Below, piece after piece: positions 1-8,361 of a stretch of DNA of 64,000 nt (its first letter is position 1; each line of letters opens with the position of its first letter). The notes under the pieces were generated by a model. The model saw nothing but the letters and a program-made list of their open reading frames with translations. It was not told the DNA's origin and made no database searches. The position numbers and the translations under genes were made by a program. Source of the stretch: Nocardia sp. BMG51109 (GTDB lineage: Bacteria; Actinomycetota; Actinomycetes; Mycobacteriales; Mycobacteriaceae); contig NZ_JAFQ01000004.1 of assembly GCF_000526215.1 (NCBI RefSeq), positions 2,232,001 through 2,296,000 of the forward strand, given 5' to 3'.

Positions 1-589
1 CTGCGACAGCCTCATCGGCTGAATCGTTGTCCAGGACACCGCTCTTCACGACGCGGCCGGTCACCGCGTTGCGATTCGCTACGCCGACGCTCACCGGATT
101 GCCGTGGGCGGCACCGCCACTCGCCGGGCCGTCATCGGCCATCGCCGGTTCGTCGTCGGACGTACGAGGCTTCGGGGCACTGTCGTCCGAGGTAGCGGGC
201 CTCACCGGATCGTCGTCCGGCACGCTGCTATTCGCAACACGACCATCCACGAAATTCCCTTGTGCGGCAGTGCCGAGCGCCGGACTGCCGTGTGCGGCAC
301 TGCTGTGCGACAGGCCACTCTCTTCAGCACCTCCGTTCGAGGCACTCTCGACCACCGGATGCCCGTCCGCGGCGCTGCCGTGCGTCGGATCGCTGTTCGC
401 GGCACCGTCGTGCGCCGGACTGCCGTGGGCAGAACCGCCGGCCGGACTGCTGTCCGCGGCACGGGACTTCGCCCGAATGTCGTTCGCGGCCACGCGGTTC
501 GCGGGACCGTGTTCGGGCGATTTCTTGTGCGCGGCACCGTCGGCCGAATTGATATTCGGGGCATCGGTTTTCGGGGGATTGTCGGTCAC
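1..589 (-). CDS. Partial protein with long disordered N-terminus, probably the ABC transporter ATP-binding subunit
   Basis: A frame on the minus strand starts with GTG at 589 and stays open to the left edge, about 196 codons. The GTG overlaps the TGA of the preceding permease gene (GTGA), so it is probably translationally coupled as the next gene of the importer operon. The visible residues are low complexity, rich in Ala, Gly, Ser, His, Asp and Pro, with loosely repeated Ala-His-Gly-Ser-Pro units, and contain no recognisable domain. In this transporter family the gene after the second permease is normally the ATPase (DppD/DppF type), so an ATPase with an unusually long disordered extension is my guess; its catalytic part would lie outside the window. 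The opposite strand is also open here, but only as a mirror of the codon periodicity. Confidence 0.55.
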   Translation of the reverse strand, partial: MTDNPPKTDAPNINSADGAAHKKSPEHGPANRVAANDIRAKSRAADSSPAGGSAHGSPAHDGAANSDPTHGSAADGHPVVESASNGGAEESGLSHSSAAHGSPALGTAAQGNFVDGRVANSSVPDDDPVRPATSDDSAPKPRTSDDEPAMADDGPASGGAAHGNPVSVGVANRNAVTGRVVKSGVLDNDSADEAVA

Positions 590-1407
590 GGGGACTCGCT
601 TGCTCGGGCCGTGCGGGTGGCGATGGTGCGTGGGTCGGCGAGAAGGTCGTCGCACAGTAGGTTGATCCCGACGACCAGCAGCACGATCAGGCCCGCCGGC
701 AGCGCGACCGACCATGGCGCGATGGTCAGCGCGTCCTTGTTGGCGGCCACCGAGACCGCCCAGTCCGTGGACGTGGTGTCGAAGCCGAGGCCCAGGAAGT
801 TGGCGGAGGCGAGGAAGTAGACCGCCGTCGTGAAGCGCACGCCGAGGTCGGCGGCGATCGGGCGGATCATCTCGCGCGCGGCGTAGTTCCCGTACCGGTA
901 GGCCCGGCTCTCGCCCTGCATCCGCAGGGCGTCCATCACCGGGCCGTGCACGACCGACCGGGCCGCCATCCGCACGAAACGGGCGATCGGCGCCACCAGC
1001 GCGATACCGACCGCGCAGGCGATCGCCACCGCCGACCCGCGCGTGCGCAGCGCGGCCACCATGATGATCAGCAGCGACGGCAGGCACAGCAGCACATCGA
1101 TCGGCCGCATCAGCAACTCGTCGAGCCACGCCCGCGGCGCCGCGGCGGCCGCCACACCGATCAGGAACCCCACGACGTAGGCGCCGAGCACGGTCAGCGC
1201 GGCGACCAGGAGAAAAGTGCGGCCGCCCGTCAGCGCCGCGGCGAGCACGTCCCGGCCGAGGCGGTCGGTGCCGAACGGCGACCACTGCGACGACTCGAAC
1301 GGCGCCTGCCGCTGCGCCGGCGCCGAGCCCGCGACGAACGGTCCGGCGACCGCGAACAGCAGCGGCACCGCCACCAGCGTGAGATATATCCACCGCCGCC
1401 GGGTCAT
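586..1407 (-). CDS. ABC transporter permease, DppC/OppC type
   Basis: This 273-residue membrane protein is the second permease of a peptide/nickel-type ABC importer. It shows an N-terminal transmembrane segment (about residues 6-24), the family's early loop with FGTDRLGRDV (about 47-56), and further hydrophobic helices. The EAA-like cytoplasmic loop, which contacts the ATPase, lies around ALRMQGESRAYRYGNY. Its ATG overlaps the stop of the upstream permease by four bases (ATGA), and its own stop overlaps the GTG of the next frame, so the genes are tightly coupled. The family carries di/oligopeptides, nickel or metal chelates; the substrate here cannot be read from the permease and is discussed under the riboswitch. 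Confidence 0.9.
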   Translation of the reverse strand: MTRRRWIYLTLVAVPLLFAVAGPFVAGSAPAQRQAPFESSQWSPFGTDRLGRDVLAAALTGGRTFLLVAALTVLGAYVVGFLIGVAAAAAPRAWLDELLMRPIDVLLCLPSLLIIMVAALRTRGSAVAIACAVGIALVAPIARFVRMAARSVVHGPVMDALRMQGESRAYRYGNYAAREMIRPIAADLGVRFTTAVYFLASANFLGLGFDTTSTDWAVSVAANKDALTIAPWSVALPAGLIVLLVVGINLLCDDLLADPRTIATRTARASESP

Positions 1408-2372
1408 CGCGGCATGCCTTCCGCGGAGCGGGGAACCAGCCGCCGGCCGACGAGATCGATCAGCAGGTTGACCACGACGGCGACGACACCGGTGATCGAG
1501 ACGATCGCGAGGATCACCGGATCGTCGCGGTTGCCGATCGCCCCGATCAGCTCCGACGCGATACCGGGCAGCACGAATACGGCCTCGACGATGAGTACCC
1601 CGGACAGCAGCCCGTCCCCGGTCCGCCCGAGCTCCTGCAACGCCGGCCCGAGCGCATTGGGCGCGACGTGCCGCAGCAACAGCGATCCGCGGCCGACGCC
1701 GAGCCGCCGGGCCTGCGCGATATAGGGCTGGTCCAGCACGTCGACGACCCCGGCCCGCACCTGCCGCACGAGCGGGGCCGCGACCCGGGCGACCATCACG
1801 ATCAGCGGCAGGACCAGATATTCGGGCCGCGCGAGCAGTGTGTCCTGATCGGTGCCGAGAAATGTCGCCGGCAGCAGCCGCAGATTCACCGCCAGATAGG
1901 TGACCAGCAGCACCGCCAGCACGAAATCCGGCACCGAGTCGAATCCGATACTGACCGAGGTGATTACGCGATCGCGCAGCGAGCCCGGCCGCAATCCGGC
2001 GGCGAAACCGGCCGCGACCGCGATCGGCAGCAACAGCGCCAGCGCCAGCACCGCCATCAGTCCGGTGGTCAGGAACGGCTGCAGGATCAGGGCGCCGACC
2101 CGCTCGCCACTGGCGTAGGAGACGCCGAAATCCCCGGTCACCGCGCGGGCGAGCCAATCCAGGAACCGCCGCACCGGAGCCACGTCCAGCCCCAGCAGCT
2201 GCCGGGCCTCGGCACGCTGATCCGCGCCGAGCACGTTGTTGTTCTGCACGTCGGCGGCGTCGCCGGGCAGCAGCAGCGACAGCACGAACACCAGCACGAG
2301 CAGCACGAGCAGTTGCCCGACACCGATTCCGGTCCGGCGCAGCACGAACCGGCCGAACGACGGCGCGGCCAC
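1404..2372 (-). CDS. ABC transporter permease, DppB/OppB type
   Basis: This 322-residue inner-membrane protein is the first permease of the importer. It has an N-terminal helix rich in Leu and Val (about residues 17-36), the usual DppB-type periplasmic stretch, and several C-terminal transmembrane segments. A family-typical RQVRAGVVDVLDQPYIAQAR loop is visible in the middle of the protein and should dock to the ATPase. The gene begins seven bases after the methyltransferase stop and overlaps the DppC-type permease by four bases. It should form the translocation channel together with that protein. Confidence 0.9.
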   Translation of the reverse strand: MAAPSFGRFVLRRTGIGVGQLLVLLVLVFVLSLLLPGDAADVQNNNVLGADQRAEARQLLGLDVAPVRRFLDWLARAVTGDFGVSYASGERVGALILQPFLTTGLMAVLALALLLPIAVAAGFAAGLRPGSLRDRVITSVSIGFDSVPDFVLAVLLVTYLAVNLRLLPATFLGTDQDTLLARPEYLVLPLIVMVARVAAPLVRQVRAGVVDVLDQPYIAQARRLGVGRGSLLLRHVAPNALGPALQELGRTGDGLLSGVLIVEAVFVLPGIASELIGAIGNRDDPVILAIVSITGVVAVVVNLLIDLVGRRLVPRSAEGMPR

Positions 2373-2378
2373 GATCGG

Positions 2379-3143
2379 CTACCGGATCCCGACCACGATG
2401 CGGTCGTCGCCGTACTGCCAGACGAATCCGGCCTCGGCGAACCCCGCCGCGCGCGCGAACGCGACGTAGTCGTGCGCGGTGGGGCGGTCGTGCACCTTGT
2501 GCTCGAACCCGCCGTTTCGCAGCCGGACCAGTTCGGCGAGTTCGGGCGCCTGCTCGACCGCCGCCCACCATGCCGCCCAGTCCTCGGCGTCCGCCGCGCC
2601 CGTCCGGTGCGCCCGGCGCGCGGTGATCGCCCGCCCCAGGCCGTCGAGCCGGGGACTGGCCTCGCCCTCGTAGAGGTGGTCGCCGTTGACGAACACCCCA
2701 CCCGGCGCCAGCGCACGCGCGCAGGTCTCGATCATCGCGCGCAGCGGCTCGCGGTTCATCCAGTGCAGCGCCGTCGTGCTCACGAACGCGTCCGGTGCCC
2801 GCTCGAGGCCCAGTTCGCCGAACCAGTCCGCGGCGCGCAGATCGGCGAAAACCGTTCGGAAGCGCGGCGATCCGAGCACTCGATCGGCCAGCGCCAGCAG
2901 CAGCGGATCCGCGTCCACCCCGACGATGCTCACCGCGGGGAACCGGCGCAGCAGCCGCTCCGACAGAGTGCCCGGCCCGACGCCCAGGTCGACGATCAAC
3001 GGATCGGGCCGATCGAGCTGCTCCGCCAGGATGTCGCCGATCACCTCGAACCGCTGTTCGCGATCGGGCATGTAGTGCTCCTGCTGGCGATCCCAGCGGT
3101 CCAGCCAGTACCGCGCCCGGTCGGCGTCCAGGGTGCCGGTCAT
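2379..3143 (-). CDS. Class I SAM-dependent methyltransferase
   Basis: This 254-residue soluble protein has the Rossmann-type SAM-binding motif I (VDLGVGPGTLSERLL, about residues 50-64), an acidic end of strand 2 (GVDADPLLLALA) and a motif IV region (FVSTTALHWM), typical of the trans-aconitate/UbiE-like methyltransferases. The substrate cannot be deduced. Its ATG overlaps the stop of the solute-binding protein (ATGA) and it precedes the permeases, so it is built into the importer operon. That position is unusual for peptide importers. It suggests a protein that modifies the imported compound, or a carrier molecule, after uptake, but this is inference. It is not one of the corrin-ring methyltransferases that I can recognise. 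Confidence 0.85.
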   Translation of the reverse strand: MTGTLDADRARYWLDRWDRQQEHYMPDREQRFEVIGDILAEQLDRPDPLIVDLGVGPGTLSERLLRRFPAVSIVGVDADPLLLALADRVLGSPRFRTVFADLRAADWFGELGLERAPDAFVSTTALHWMNREPLRAMIETCARALAPGGVFVNGDHLYEGEASPRLDGLGRAITARRAHRTGAADAEDWAAWWAAVEQAPELAELVRLRNGGFEHKVHDRPTAHDYVAFARAAGFAEAGFVWQYGDDRIVVGIR

Positions 3144-4666
3144 CGGGCGGCCACCTTGTCGAACCGTGCCCAGTCGTGCGAATTGGGCACCGCCGCAGGG
3201 GCGTTGCGGACGGTGTCGCGCGCGGCGCTCAGCCAGTTCGTGGTGCCGAAGAACACGAATCCTCCTCTGTCATACAGTATTTCGTGCATCGTGCGGTAGA
3301 TCGCCGTGCGCCCCTCCTCCGTCGGGGTGGCCTGCGCGCGGGCATACAGCCGGTCGAACTCCGGATCGGACCACTTCGTGCGGTTCTGCGGCGATCCGGT
3401 GAGCAGCCGGGAGGCGAAATGGTTGGGGATCGACAGCGGCCCGGACTGACCCATCGTGAGCTGGCCGGTGTTCAGCGCGTCGGCGTAGTAGCTGTCCTTC
3501 GAGCCGAGCACCACGTTCACCCGGACCCCGCAGCGTGCCGCCTGGTCGGCGAAAAGCCTTGCCACCTCCACGAATCCGTAGGCGACCGGGGCGGTGAACA
3601 GGTCGAACGACAGGTCGCGGACGCCGGCCCGGCTCAGCAGCCGCCCCACCTCGTCGGGGTCGTACCCGTGTTGCGGCAGGTCGGCGTAGTACTGATAGCC
3701 CTTGCCGAACACGTCGTTGGAGACCTCGCCCTCCCCCGCCAGCCCCACCTTCACCAGCTCCGCGCGATCCATCATCCGCATCACCGCACGCCGCACGTCC
3801 GGATTGTCGAACGGCGGCCGATCGGTCTTCATGGCGAAGAAGTAGATGCCGCTGTTCGGCGTCGACTCGAGCGAAACACCGCTCCGGCCACGCAATGTCC
3901 GGGCCGAGGCCGGCGTGAGGTTGTCCGCGAAGTCGATCTGGCCGCTCTGCACGGCCGCCAGCCGGGCGTCCGATTCCGCGCTGATGATCTCGAGCCGCCG
4001 CACCGAGGGCGCCCCGTCCCAGTAGCGGTCGTTCGCCGTGGCGACGAACTGCTTTCCCGGCTCGAACGATTCGAAGACGAACGGCCCGGTGCCGACCGGA
4101 CGGGTCAGGTCGGTGGCACCGTCCTGGATGATCTTCGTCCCGTAGGCCGACAGCGCCGCCGGGAATTCGAAAGACGGCTGCCGCAGGGCGATCTCGACGG
4201 TCAGGTCGTCGACGGCCCGGCACTGCCCGAGATCGACCTGGTCGAGTGTGCTGGCGGCGATGAAAGGTCGCCGCTGCGGCGGACCGAGCACCCGGGCCAC
4301 CGTGTAGAGCACGTCCCGGGAGGTGAACTTCTTCCCGTCGTGCCATTGCGCGTCGCGCAGCGCGATCCGCCACCTCGTGCCGTCGGCGTTCGGCTCGGCC
4401 GAGGCGGCCAGCCGGGGAGTCGGCCGCATCGCCCCGTCGATCTCGAACAGTCCGTCGTAGACCGCCTTCATCCGTGCCTCGTCGATGAACAGCGTGTTCA
4501 CACCGGGATCGATGCCCTCTCCGGCACCGGATCCCTGAAAGGCGGCGGTGAACGTCTCGGTGTCACCCGCCCCCTGCCCACAGCCCACGGCCAACGCTCC
4601 CGCGGCGGCGGCACCGCCCAGCAGGAAACCGCGGCGGCTCATTCCCGGCGGCACGACACTCCGCAT
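3140..4666 (-). CDS. ABC transporter solute-binding lipoprotein, peptide/nickel family (SBP_bac_5)
   Basis: This roughly 508-residue protein is the extracytoplasmic binding component. It begins with a twin-arginine-type signal (MSRRGFLLGG, residues 9-18 of this start) followed by a lipobox ending AVGCGQ, so it is probably a Tat-exported lipoprotein. The mature part has the DppA/OppA/NikA layout: DARWHDG-like motif (LRDAQWHDGKKFTSRDVLYT), then PVGTGPF, and late family signature stretches. I chose the ATG at 4666 because GGGAG lies just upstream; an in-frame ATG at 4642 is the alternative, and the frame extends further upstream without a better start. The gene leads the operon and lies directly behind a cobalamin riboswitch, which hints at cobalt, a cobalt chelate or a corrinoid-related ligand rather than a plain peptide. 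Confidence 0.92.
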   Translation of the reverse strand: MRSVVPPGMSRRGFLLGGAAAAGALAVGCGQGAGDTETFTAAFQGSGAGEGIDPGVNTLFIDEARMKAVYDGLFEIDGAMRPTPRLAASAEPNADGTRWRIALRDAQWHDGKKFTSRDVLYTVARVLGPPQRRPFIAASTLDQVDLGQCRAVDDLTVEIALRQPSFEFPAALSAYGTKIIQDGATDLTRPVGTGPFVFESFEPGKQFVATANDRYWDGAPSVRRLEIISAESDARLAAVQSGQIDFADNLTPASARTLRGRSGVSLESTPNSGIYFFAMKTDRPPFDNPDVRRAVMRMMDRAELVKVGLAGEGEVSNDVFGKGYQYYADLPQHGYDPDEVGRLLSRAGVRDLSFDLFTAPVAYGFVEVARLFADQAARCGVRVNVVLGSKDSYYADALNTGQLTMGQSGPLSIPNHFASRLLTGSPQNRTKWSDPEFDRLYARAQATPTEEGRTAIYRTMHEILYDRGGFVFFGTTNWLSAARDTVRNAPAAVPNSHDWARFDKVAAR

Positions 4667-4779
4667 GTCCGACTCCCATCGCGTCCGGCACCCCACGCGA
4701 GAAGACATGCACAAACAAGCCGGCGGCTCACTCGGCGCATCGACCATTTCCACGTGATCGTGACCGTTCCGTAGTTGTG

Positions 4780-4885
4780 CCCGCAGGTATCTGGCTTCGG
4801 CTCATGACGAGCCTCACAGTTGCGGGACAGCCCCGGACTCACACCGGTCTTCCCCACGGGCACGCGATATCTTACGCAGGCCACG
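4780..4885 (-). promoter_or_regulatory. Cobalamin (vitamin B12) riboswitch
   Basis: Read on the minus strand, this leader carries the conserved cobalamin-aptamer elements in order: GGGAAGACCGGTG, then GAGTCCGGGGCTGTCCCGC, then CAACTGTGA, and finally the B12 box AAGCCAGATACCTGC (4783-4797). It lies about 115 bases upstream of the start of the solute-binding protein gene and in the same direction. By family knowledge, binding of adenosylcobalamin should reduce expression of the operon, either by blocking translation or by termination. I did not fold the flanking P1 stem, so the ends are approximate. Confidence 0.92.
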
Positions 4886-4992: not shown

Positions 4993-5328
4993 ATGACTTC
5001 CGGAGACGGTTCGGTCCTGGCCACCAGACACCTCGCCGTGGGCGGCAAACCCGTGCACGTGACGATCGGCCGGCCGCACCCGGATCCGGCGGCCGACGAC
5101 CGCGAATTCACCTGCCATATCGCCATCGAGGGTATGACCGTCGCCCCGATCCGGCTGCGCAGCAACGCCGGAACGCCCGCGCGCACCGTCGCCGTGGGCA
5201 TTCGCAAGACCGCCGAGCGCCTATCGGTCAGCGTGGCCGAACTGTTGTCCGACGCACAGGTGGGGGTCGGCCCGTACGGTCGGCGCCCACCACCGGACGT
5301 TTCGCTGGGCCGGTCGTCATCCCGGTGA
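4993..5328 (+). CDS. Small conserved-looking protein of unknown function
   Basis: This 111-residue soluble protein has no signal peptide or membrane segment. It begins MTSGDGSVLATRHLAVGGKP and its middle contains an alternating polar/hydrophobic pattern suited to a small beta-rich fold (CHIAIEGMTVAPIRL). It may belong to one of the short actinobacterial DUF families, but I cannot name it with confidence. It runs divergently from the cobalamin-regulated operon and overlaps the tail of the convergent large gene by 12 bases. The GC-rich codon pattern supports coding. Confidence 0.55.
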   Translation: MTSGDGSVLATRHLAVGGKPVHVTIGRPHPDPAADDREFTCHIAIEGMTVAPIRLRSNAGTPARTVAVGIRKTAERLSVSVAELLSDAQVGVGPYGRRPPPDVSLGRSSSR

Positions 5329-8172
5329 CCGGTCGCCCTCTTTCGGCGGGCACCACGCGGAGGGCGTATGTCCCTCCGCGGTCCCGCAGAATCCGATGAT
5401 GTCGGTGTTCACATCCCCGTGGACGACCTGCAGGATGGCGACCGGCTTATCTTTCGGTACCTGCCGGGTGATCTCGCCGCCGTAGTCGATGGTGCCGCTG
5501 ACACCGTCGATCTGGCGTTGCTCCGTGGGGTATCGGTGGATGTCGGTGATCTCGCGCCAGACGGTGCCCGGCGTCGTCGGATGGCTGACCGGGCCGGTGT
5601 GCAGGTAGCTCGTCGCCCGGATCAGAACCTGCGCGGCGTCGTAGGCCAGCGCCGCGTGCCCGTCGAGTGATCGGCCGTGTTCCGGGTTCCGCTCGAACGG
5701 GAACAGCTCCTCGAGCGTCTGATAGAAGTTCAGCTCCTCACCGTTACGCTCCGTGATCGGCGGAGCGACGGCGAACGAGGCGTAGTAGAAGTTCAGCGTC
5801 CGGTTGGCCTGGCGTTTCGGCGCGGCGGCCACGTACCGGCTGACATCGTCGTCACCGATGAACACGGCCTTGCTCGAGCACGCGCCGGCCGCGTCCAGAA
5901 AGTCGCCGTAATCGGGCAGCCCGCGCCCGGCGAAGAACACGTATCCGTCGTATCCACAGGTGCTCCGCCCGGCGTCAGCAGCCCGGCCCGGTGTGAACGA
6001 CCGCGGGTCGGCGTCGAAGCCCTTGGCCGAGAACTCGATTCGCGCGTTGTCGCGCAGGTCCGAACTGTAGGTATCGGCCGAGTCGTCGGAATAGTAGATC
6101 CGTACCTTACGGGCACCCGAGGACCCTTTCGCATGATCGTCCGCGAAGGCCGCCACGACCTGGGCCTCGGTCTTGTTGGTCGGAGCCACCTGGAAATACA
6201 TGGGGCGCCCGGTGCCCAGGCTCTCCTGCGACAGGGTCGAGGCGACCATCGGCAGGCCGGCATTGCTGAGGACCTCGATCATGTCCGCGGTCGCCCGCGT
6301 GCTCAGGTCCAGCCCGACCACACCGACCAGGCGCTCGTCCCGGTCGGCCAGTTCGCCGAGTTGCCGGGCCACCGTCGCCGCCTGCAGCATGCCCTTCCCG
6401 CCGTTCGCGATCAGCACGCGCACGATCGGAGCGTCGTCCCCCTGCCTGCTCGTCAACTGCCGTTGTTGTGCGGCCGCAACGCCTTCCAGCCCCTCGCGCT
6501 CGGCCGTGAGCGAATCGGCAGTGCCGTCGGACGAGGTGAGCGCCTGCGGGTAGGCGATGGTGATGTAGGGCCGTTTCGGGAAGTCCTCGTGCAGCCGTTC
6601 GGCCGCTTCGTTCTGTGCGGCAATGGTGTTTTCGACGCTGCGGATGTGCGGATCCGACGGCTCGAACAGACTGTGCGACCCGTCGCTGATGCCGATGCAC
6701 TCGGCCCCGACCCGGTGCACCGACGACGTGAAACTCCAGCAGTGGTCGCGGTGGTACCCGACCGGAATGGTGGCCAGCCCGGCGCACAGGATCACGACGC
6801 CGGAGATGCGGACCGCGCGGTTGTAGACCAGTGGTGGCCGCACAGCCTTTCTCTCGTCGTCGGTTTGGAGATCGAAGCCGCTGAATCCGTCCGGGCCGTC
6901 GTCGGAACTCCCGGTCGCCGAGCCGGGCGCGGGGAGGGAGATCGGCAGGTACCAGGTGATCGGCTTGCGTTTGCGCCGATTCACCGACAGCTCGTTCCGC
7001 CACTCCGTATAAGCGGACGATGCGGACACGGCCGCCGTGGGCGCCGCCGGATCGGAGCTGCGGCGGCTGGGACCGAGGTGCCGGTGCCGGCCGACACCGA
7101 CGATCAACAGCGGGTCGAACAGTCCGGTCTGGTTCCGGATCTCGTTCACCAGCCAGAGCAGGCGGTCTCCCCCGCCGACCAGGGCCGCGTCGTCGAGCAG
7201 CAGCACCGGATAGGTCATCCGGCGGGTGCGGGTGATGTTCCACCACGGCAATCGGTAGCCGCGCCGCAGGTCCTCGAGAAAGGCGTTCACCAGCAGGCGG
7301 GCAACATATTCCGGGTCCTCGCCCCGCCAGCGCCCGAGCCGGTCGGCGAACCGCACGAACGTTCCCGACAGGTCCGGCGCCAGGTGTGGTTGCCGCATGA
7401 ACCACCGGTATCGGCCGGACAGCAACGGAATTCGGCCGGTCAGCGCCAAGCGGAAGATTCCGAGCGTCACGACGTACATCAGCCACAGCGGGGCCCGCCA
7501 CCGGGTCTGTTCGAGGGCGATGTCCCGGTCCGCGGTCCGCACCGCGCTCTCGATGTGCCGCATGACGCCGTACTGCCGAAACAGGCGCCGGTACCAGCGA
7601 TCACGATCCGGCTCGTCTTCGCCGGGGCCGCTGCGCATCAGCAGATACACCAGCGAGAACAGCGGAAACTGTAGCCGCCGACCGCGTTTGTCGTCGCTGA
7701 CGAGTTTGTTGCGCGCCTCCCACAGCAGGTTTCGAACGGCCTCGACGTCGGCATAGGAGAACTCGCCACGTCGCGGTTCGTCCCAGGGCACCCCCTCGAA
7801 ACCTCCTGTGCCCGACTGCTTGTCACCGTCGGTACTCGATCGCTCGGCCCGGCTCCGCACGTGCGCATACGGTGGGCGCGCATCGGCGGGCGTCGCACCC
7901 TTCAAGAAGCCCGCGATGTTTCCGGTCACCAGGGCACTCAGGTCGTTGTCGCCCTCGGTCGCCGAATCATTCTCGGGCGTAACGAGATAGACCATGGGCA
8001 GGCCGCGCAGTTCCGACCGCCCGTCCTTGGAATACGCACCGCCCCACCGCAGATCGCCGGTCAGTTTGCGCGGCCAGTCGCTGTACCGCGGGCGCTGATA
8101 CAGCGCGCCGATCAACCGATAGACACGGCCTGCACCCGGGAAATTGGGGACCTTGTCCCCCGGTCTGTCCAT
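5317..8172 (-). CDS. Large membrane protein with C-terminal periplasmic-binding-protein-like domain
   Basis: From the ATG at 8172 this is a 951-residue protein; an upstream in-frame start at 8250 would add 26 residues. I prefer 8172 because GGGGAG precedes it. The first roughly 450 residues look cytosolic, with a hydrophobic segment near 227-250 (LWLMYVVTLGIFRLAL) and a Walker-B-like strand near 322-330 (PVLLLDDAAL); I see no P-loop. A clear transmembrane helix lies near 453-474 (VVILCAGLATIPVGY). After it comes a region resembling type 1 periplasmic binding (branched-chain amino-acid receptor) folds, with GVVGLDLSTRATADMIEVL and a Cys-rich surface. The most likely role is a one-protein sensor or receptor, not a transport subunit, as no permease or ATPase genes adjoin it. 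The ligand and function are unknown. Confidence 0.7.
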   Translation of the reverse strand: MDRPGDKVPNFPGAGRVYRLIGALYQRPRYSDWPRKLTGDLRWGGAYSKDGRSELRGLPMVYLVTPENDSATEGDNDLSALVTGNIAGFLKGATPADARPPYAHVRSRAERSSTDGDKQSGTGGFEGVPWDEPRRGEFSYADVEAVRNLLWEARNKLVSDDKRGRRLQFPLFSLVYLLMRSGPGEDEPDRDRWYRRLFRQYGVMRHIESAVRTADRDIALEQTRWRAPLWLMYVVTLGIFRLALTGRIPLLSGRYRWFMRQPHLAPDLSGTFVRFADRLGRWRGEDPEYVARLLVNAFLEDLRRGYRLPWWNITRTRRMTYPVLLLDDAALVGGGDRLLWLVNEIRNQTGLFDPLLIVGVGRHRHLGPSRRSSDPAAPTAAVSASSAYTEWRNELSVNRRKRKPITWYLPISLPAPGSATGSSDDGPDGFSGFDLQTDDERKAVRPPLVYNRAVRISGVVILCAGLATIPVGYHRDHCWSFTSSVHRVGAECIGISDGSHSLFEPSDPHIRSVENTIAAQNEAAERLHEDFPKRPYITIAYPQALTSSDGTADSLTAEREGLEGVAAAQQRQLTSRQGDDAPIVRVLIANGGKGMLQAATVARQLGELADRDERLVGVVGLDLSTRATADMIEVLSNAGLPMVASTLSQESLGTGRPMYFQVAPTNKTEAQVVAAFADDHAKGSSGARKVRIYYSDDSADTYSSDLRDNARIEFSAKGFDADPRSFTPGRAADAGRSTCGYDGYVFFAGRGLPDYGDFLDAAGACSSKAVFIGDDDVSRYVAAAPKRQANRTLNFYYASFAVAPPITERNGEELNFYQTLEELFPFERNPEHGRSLDGHAALAYDAAQVLIRATSYLHTGPVSHPTTPGTVWREITDIHRYPTEQRQIDGVSGTIDYGGEITRQVPKDKPVAILQVVHGDVNTDIIGFCGTAEGHTPSAWCPPKEGDRSPG

Positions 8173-8361
8173 TGCCGTGTTTCTCCCCACTCGCGCTCGA
8201 TCCGCATGCGCGCCGCACGACACGACGCTGCCCCCGGAACCCTCCGCCATCGTGGCACATGCCCGTGGGCCCGGTCCCGATACGCGCGGTATTCCCAGGT
8301 CGGTGCCGTCGGGCGAACCCGGTGAGCAGCGTCATGATGCCGAGCGCCGGACCGCGGCGTA

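Follow-up and report, generated by a model that had tools for sequence, protein, structure and literature searches.

Cobalt uptake in the actinobacteria that make B12 has mostly been predicted and seldom tested. From the accessible parts of the literature, NikA-type importers under B12 riboswitches are already known, as is a riboswitched Co(II) importer with a BtuF-like protein. The former, the NikABCDE systems of C. tetani and D. hafniense, are given as an exception to nickel specificity in the available part of PMC2667541, and the latter is CbtJKL of Sinorhizobium meliloti, an ATP-binding cassette (ABC) importer under an adenosylcobalamin (AdoCbl) riboswitch in which CbtJ is BtuF-like, as described in the available part of PMC7689651. 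The operon analyzed here lies on the minus strand, at the left end of a stretch of 64,000 nucleotides (the window) from the 8.79 Mb genome of Nocardia sp. BMG51109 (contig NZ_JAFQ01000004.1, positions 2,232,001 to 2,296,000). Like NikABCDE, as far as the accessible part of PMC2667541 describes it, this is an importer with a family-5 substrate-binding protein (SBP; SBP_bac_5, 508 aa with an ATG start, 3140 to 4666, PF00496 with 235 bits) under a cobalamin riboswitch. Unlike NikABCDE, it carries an embedded methyltransferase (MT) of the class I S-adenosylmethionine (SAM)-dependent type (254 aa, 2379 to 3143, PF13649 with 48.6 bits), and its ATPases are fused into one protein. With CbtJKL it shares riboswitched ABC import, but not the BtuF-like binding protein, and the available part of PMC7689651 does not mention an MT. 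Relatives of the MT were found in a second, unrelated importer class, FecB-MT-FecCD-ATPase, also with cobalamin riboswitches, and this association is new. A term search of the open-access literature retrieved no description of an MT embedded in either importer class, regulon supplements lying outside that search so that an earlier in-silico listing is possible; the words 'cobaltophore' and 'metallophore' were not found among the matches listed. The operon is read here, with even chances, as a cobalamin-repressed importer of chelated cobalt.

The riboswitch aptamer, a compact form of 112 nt (4765 to 4876, minus strand), matched the RF00174 covariance model with 41.4 bits over a gathering score of 31.5 (E-values of 4.9e-7 in the window and 1.6e-8 in the genome search). 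The preliminary description of this DNA had placed a cobalamin riboswitch at 4780-4885; the significant match upheld its presence before the operon, and its limits had to be shifted by 9-15 nt. The conserved core and the covarying helices were recovered in relatives as well. In 20 aligned leaders from seven genera standard pairs occupied 95.4% of the cells of the aptamer helices and one downstream hairpin, 10 of the 11 two-sided pair changes fell within the aptamer, and none of 500 shuffles matched the pairing and covariation values. Within the genus, sampled by 59 genomes, a close SBP copy (at least 74% identical) is encoded in 12, and an RF00174 match lies directly upstream on the same strand in all 12 (in G015 the SBP gene is split across two contigs). 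More distant SBPs of the genus occupy 13 places at 35-37% identity and one at 40%, with a riboswitch upstream in 12 of the 14; none was found upstream of the copies in G038 and G003:C98. These distant SBPs, together with the accessible part of PMC2667541, contradict the earlier assertion that peptide-type importers stand outside B12 regulons. Four of the distant-SBP operons were inspected (L060-L063, in G017, G041, G003 and G046; SBP at 35-36% identity), and they have riboswitches of their own and lack the MT. At one of these loci (L062, G003:C73), about 18 kb of a single contig contain a pair of family-5 importer operons together with four matches to the cobalamin riboswitch.

The leader between the aptamer and the start codon (4667 to 4764, minus strand) is a candidate translational switch, marked by conserved blocks. 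Most leaders contain, 3' of the aptamer, a CACGYGG block, a TCGCGTG-like element and a GACGCGA block, the last one directly 5' of GGGAG and the start codon. A TCGCG...CGCGA hairpin can thus form immediately before the GGGAG ribosome-binding site, with 90% of its cells paired and a two-sided change in just one of five pairs, and the TCGCGTG-like middle element has the upstream CACGYGG as alternative pairing partner. In 19 of 23 local folds of the leaders at least three of the five Shine-Dalgarno (SD) nucleotides were paired. The folding energies of the leaders were mostly no better than those of shuffles, not unusual for GC-rich sequence, and for that reason the SD hairpin with its alternative CACGYGG pairing is offered only as a tentative candidate for a translational off-switch of the usual logic. 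The direction, off with cobalamin, would be that of the riboswitch family.

The preliminary description had reported five genes, none of them a known B12 or cobalt gene, with the MT embedded among them. That content was borne out, and the order SBP-MT-permease-permease-ATPase, when sought together with the riboswitch in other actinobacteria, proved recurrent: it was present at 25 of the 42 loci that a search with the MT identified in named genomes and, with the MT kept, in nine genera (Nocardia, from which the nearest MT relatives come, Prauserella, Pseudonocardia, Amycolatopsis, Saccharopolyspora, Rhodococcus, Marmoricola, Gordonia and a mycobacterium). A scan for the core riboswitch motif, made by pattern matching with at most two mismatches allowed and not by the covariance model, located it upstream of the SBP gene in 22 of the 25 five-gene loci. 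As for the remaining three, L043 has a long-form Rfam match of 71.1 bits, L040 (Marmoricola) a sub-threshold one of 25.8 bits, and the contig of L014 begins inside the SBP gene. The orthologues are mostly riboswitched, therefore, and the earlier concern that they might lack the element applies to L030 of Pseudonocardia, where none was found, and to Marmoricola. Two irregular copies were observed: in L019 (Nocardia brevicatena) the SBP is called at 180 aa only, the four remaining genes and the riboswitch motif being retained, and in G030 only a 60-residue MT match lies behind a full-length SBP match.

In the second importer class, MT relatives with 40-44% identity are found in mycobacteria and Conexibacter inside FecB-MT-FecCD-ATPase operons. 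An RF00174 match lies upstream of six out of six such loci (L049-L054, L053 having the MT-FecB order without the remaining operon genes), and the Rfam search returned no riboswitch at the same four-gene loci L055 (Nonomuraea), L081 and L082, so that six of nine FecB-type loci are riboswitched overall. In L054, from a mycobacterium, the MT appears to be shortened and fragmented (L054:10001-10479), and the importer genes of the riboswitched FecB operon look intact. FecB-type MTs are rare: a search of 296 genomes of the class at E 1e-60 found them in two. MSMEG_4558-4560 of M. smegmatis, a BtuFCD-like operon of three genes whose function is stated as unknown, is comparable with the mycobacterial loci by importer class alone, and the available part of PMC8088520 does not mention an MT. 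In a tree of 56 MTs, which leaves out matches under about 180 residues (L054 among them) and in which the program flags long branches such as L055, the six FecB-type rows group in a single clade (100/99), apart from the family-5 type, and MTs from outside riboswitched operons fall between both groups. Since the two clades stand apart, separate recruitment of the MT into two B12-switched importer classes would be the simplest reading; a single ancient association, followed by losses and an importer switch, would also produce such a tree and is not favoured as the simplest. A third arrangement, SBP-permease-permease-ATPase-MT, occurs on a Streptomyces plasmid (L056), where a cobalamin riboswitch of 69.7 bits on the opposite strand (L056:1-1083) is oriented towards a PepSY_TM gene, itself divergent from the MT cluster.

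The assignment of the operon to import of chelated cobalt is based on the conservation of the riboswitch, on the repeated occurrence of the MT in importers with a B12 switch and on the metal-related neighbours of some relatives. With abundant cobalamin the riboswitch would block the ribosome-binding site; under cobalamin shortage the SBP would bind a cobalt chelate outside the membrane, and the two permeases with the double ATPase would move it inward. The cytoplasmic MT, probably co-translated with the SBP, would then methylate the chelator, perhaps at a carboxylate, and this would help to free or process the metal on its way to CobN and the making of B12. We infer the metal, the chelate as substrate and the methylation step, and a cobalt chelate is favoured over a corrinoid precursor as the predicted substrate. 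The action of the MT on the chelator after entry is a doubtful part of the scheme. Somewhat more doubtful is its extension to a cobalt-metallophore route in which the metal is freed by chelator methylation, instead of or alongside reduction, one MT family serving both Nik/Opp-type and BtuFCD-type importers.

The metal-related neighbours are as follows. In Marmoricola (L040:13984-16256) the ATPase gene overlaps a gene for an FhuF_C siderophore-reductase-like protein, followed by CbtB-CbtA with a sub-threshold AdoCbl riboswitch match ahead (45.2 bits against a cut-off of 50), and a PepSY_TM gene diverges upstream of the operon. A general partnership with the FhuF-like gene was discarded, as it was found in Marmoricola only (tblastn over the window, L007 and L013-L059; motif scan over the window and L007-L059). 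In Brachybacterium the series comprises an ABC-3 (ZnuB-like) permease and ATPase, the MT, an SBP, a permease, a fused permease-ATPase and a DtxR-type regulator. In the genus genome G053 an MT of 75% identity, without the importer described here, lies about 1.4 kb behind CbiM-CbiQ-CbiO-like genes on the same strand, with a Fur-family gene, an ArsR-like remnant and a His-rich peptide between (L064:8125-9236). A peptide-utilisation context for the orthologous operons, the other setting that had been contemplated, did not emerge.

The same FhuF-like reductase could act on corrinoids too, and the importer could take up corrinoids or their precursors for salvage, the MT trimming or remodelling them. 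B12 uptake genes are the classic targets of the cobalamin riboswitch, and FecB of the BtuFCD-like FecB-MT-FecCD-ATPase operons shares 45-52% identity with a FecB that is riboswitched in the Nocardia genome itself. In this genome the other cobalamin riboswitches lead two FecB/FecCD importers (here labelled BtuFCD-like, their best NCBIfam models being below cut-off), metE and a CbtA protein. Together with cobN, which has a sub-threshold cobalamin riboswitch ahead, and a fused cobI-cobJ, these riboswitched B12 genes indicate that the strain is probably a B12 producer. CobN is encoded in all 59 genus genomes, which speaks against salvage, as do the ion-transporter neighbours, CbtBA at the Marmoricola operon and the CbiMQO-like genes beside the 75%-identical MT of G053. 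Family-5 SBPs are not known to bind B12. Even in M. smegmatis the BtuF-like function is only predicted, according to the available part of PMC8088520. Salvage is therefore considered improbable.

The remaining operon genes and the upstream neighbour were also characterized. The SBP is probably a twin-arginine lipoprotein, with RRGFL near its start and a lipobox-like Cys. Permease B (BPD_transp_1, 322 aa, 1404 to 2372, minus strand) matches PF00528 with 87 bits, and among NCBIfam models it scores best with those for nickel or nickel/cobalt permeases, every one below cut-off; permease C (BPD_transp_1, 273 aa, 586 to 1407, minus strand) matches PF00528 with 65 bits on L007:10586-11428. ATGA overlaps join the MT start to the SBP stop and permease B to permease C. 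The ATPase gene enters the window with its 5' part (1 to 589, minus strand) and runs 1.5 kb past the left edge, ending near window coordinate -1513 (L007:8487, L007 being the stretch of the same genome that extends past that edge). The full gene (L007:8487-10589) is a single reading frame with two ABC_tran stretches, and for this reason the operon is counted as five genes. About 200 degenerate low-complexity residues precede the first ABC domain (window 1-589, L007:9986-10589) and are missing from the gene calls of relatives, so that the true start may lie downstream of the annotated one. Upstream of the operon, a 977-aa protein (5317-8250) matched neither Pfam nor NCBIfam models at E 0.001.

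With a family-5 SBP, two BPD permeases and ATPase domains together, the operon has the NikABCDE layout. Assignment of the SBP as NikA failed, since it missed the NCBIfam equivalog cut-offs (104.8 bits where 600 are required, and 75.7 where 393 are), and it scored 52.1 of 800 bits as the staphylopine-importer CntA. The MT likewise stayed below the NCBIfam cut-offs for trans-aconitate 2-methyltransferase (41.1 of 320 bits, equivalog) and for the corrinoid protein-associated methyltransferase CpaM (35.8 of 180). It shares the class I fold of the BelI/CysG O-methyltransferases described in the accessible part of PMC11408123, but only 18-25% identity. A metal-dependent BelI/CysG type was rejected because the His-His-Asp motif is broken: H127 is kept and the second His is W128. 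Both residues are invariant in 30 aligned MTs, the motif Asp lying outside the aligned stretch. CntABCDF-type systems couple family-5 importers with SAM-using metallophore enzymes, and by analogy the MT could build the chelator, the operon providing the import side of a metallophore system that the cell makes itself, with its exporter encoded elsewhere. The overlap of the MT and SBP genes and the occurrence of an MT near CbiMQO-like genes would suit this idea. The SBP, by contrast, is far under the CntA cut-off, and beside the five genes no additional biosynthetic or export gene was noticed, although no systematic comparison was made; a self-made chelator is accordingly the least probable of the explanations considered.

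Several observations weigh against import of chelated cobalt. In the alignment of the SBP with E. coli NikA (24% identity), the position of His416, a metal ligand in NikA, is occupied by the Pro of SPQ, the alignment being uncertain there. Comparison of the SBP fold placed AapF, AgaA, NikA/NikZ, DppA and others within about 3 Z units, and the fold would suit a peptide or an opine no less than a nickel chelate; because these binders score alike, the fold does not assign a substrate. This equal match of peptide and opine binders agrees with a methionine-sparing or peptide-uptake role, in which an imported methyl- or methionine compound, handled by the MT, would offset the missing B12-dependent reaction, as metE does; metE of the Nocardia genome is under the same kind of riboswitch. 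Such a role is very unlikely, given the metal-transport neighbours in three lineages and the FecBCD importers with which the MT recurs, which are not known to be peptide carriers. Nor was a methionine gene noticed among the flanking gene calls, most flanks being unannotated. Chelated-cobalt import must also accommodate four Pseudonocardia loci where the MT diverges from a family-5 importer (37-45% identity) and no riboswitch motif was found (motif scan, with Rfam on one). Several MT relatives are solitary in ordinary surroundings with no metal gene noticed nearby, so that a link to metals does not hold across the whole MT family. At the MT locus of G053 a riboswitch search found none and the neighbours could equally be read as zinc-related; CbiMQO presumably carries free ions, and its proximity to an MT speaks against the enzyme depending on a chelator brought in from outside.

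The distribution of cobalt transporters in the 59 genomes bears on the question in both directions. CbtA is missing in six, namely in four of the 12 operon carriers and two of the 47 others (p 0.013). CbtA and NicO are jointly missing only in G003, G004 and G014, all of them carriers (p 0.007) and all without CbiM. Two of these three, G004 and G014, match contigs labelled N. carnea, so the joint loss may be a single event, and absence of NicO is not associated with the operon (four of 12 carriers, 16 of 47 others). Since most carriers keep CbtA (eight of 12) or NicO (eight of 12), the operon is not the sole candidate route for cobalt. Among the 13 genomes with distant riboswitched SBPs, NicO is missing in 10, against 10 of the other 46 (p 0.0004), and CbiM tends to be present (7/13 vs 3/46). 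The p-values come from seven pairings run twice; all 59 genomes were kept, and results were also obtained without the two under 90% complete. They are uncorrected and blind to kinship, which weakens them as support for a cobalt role.

That related MTs are found in two B12-switched importers of unrelated classes suggests a step, so far unrecognised, in how imported cobalt or corrinoid is handled, and the operon offers a defined enzyme and a binding protein with which the substrate can be directly tested.

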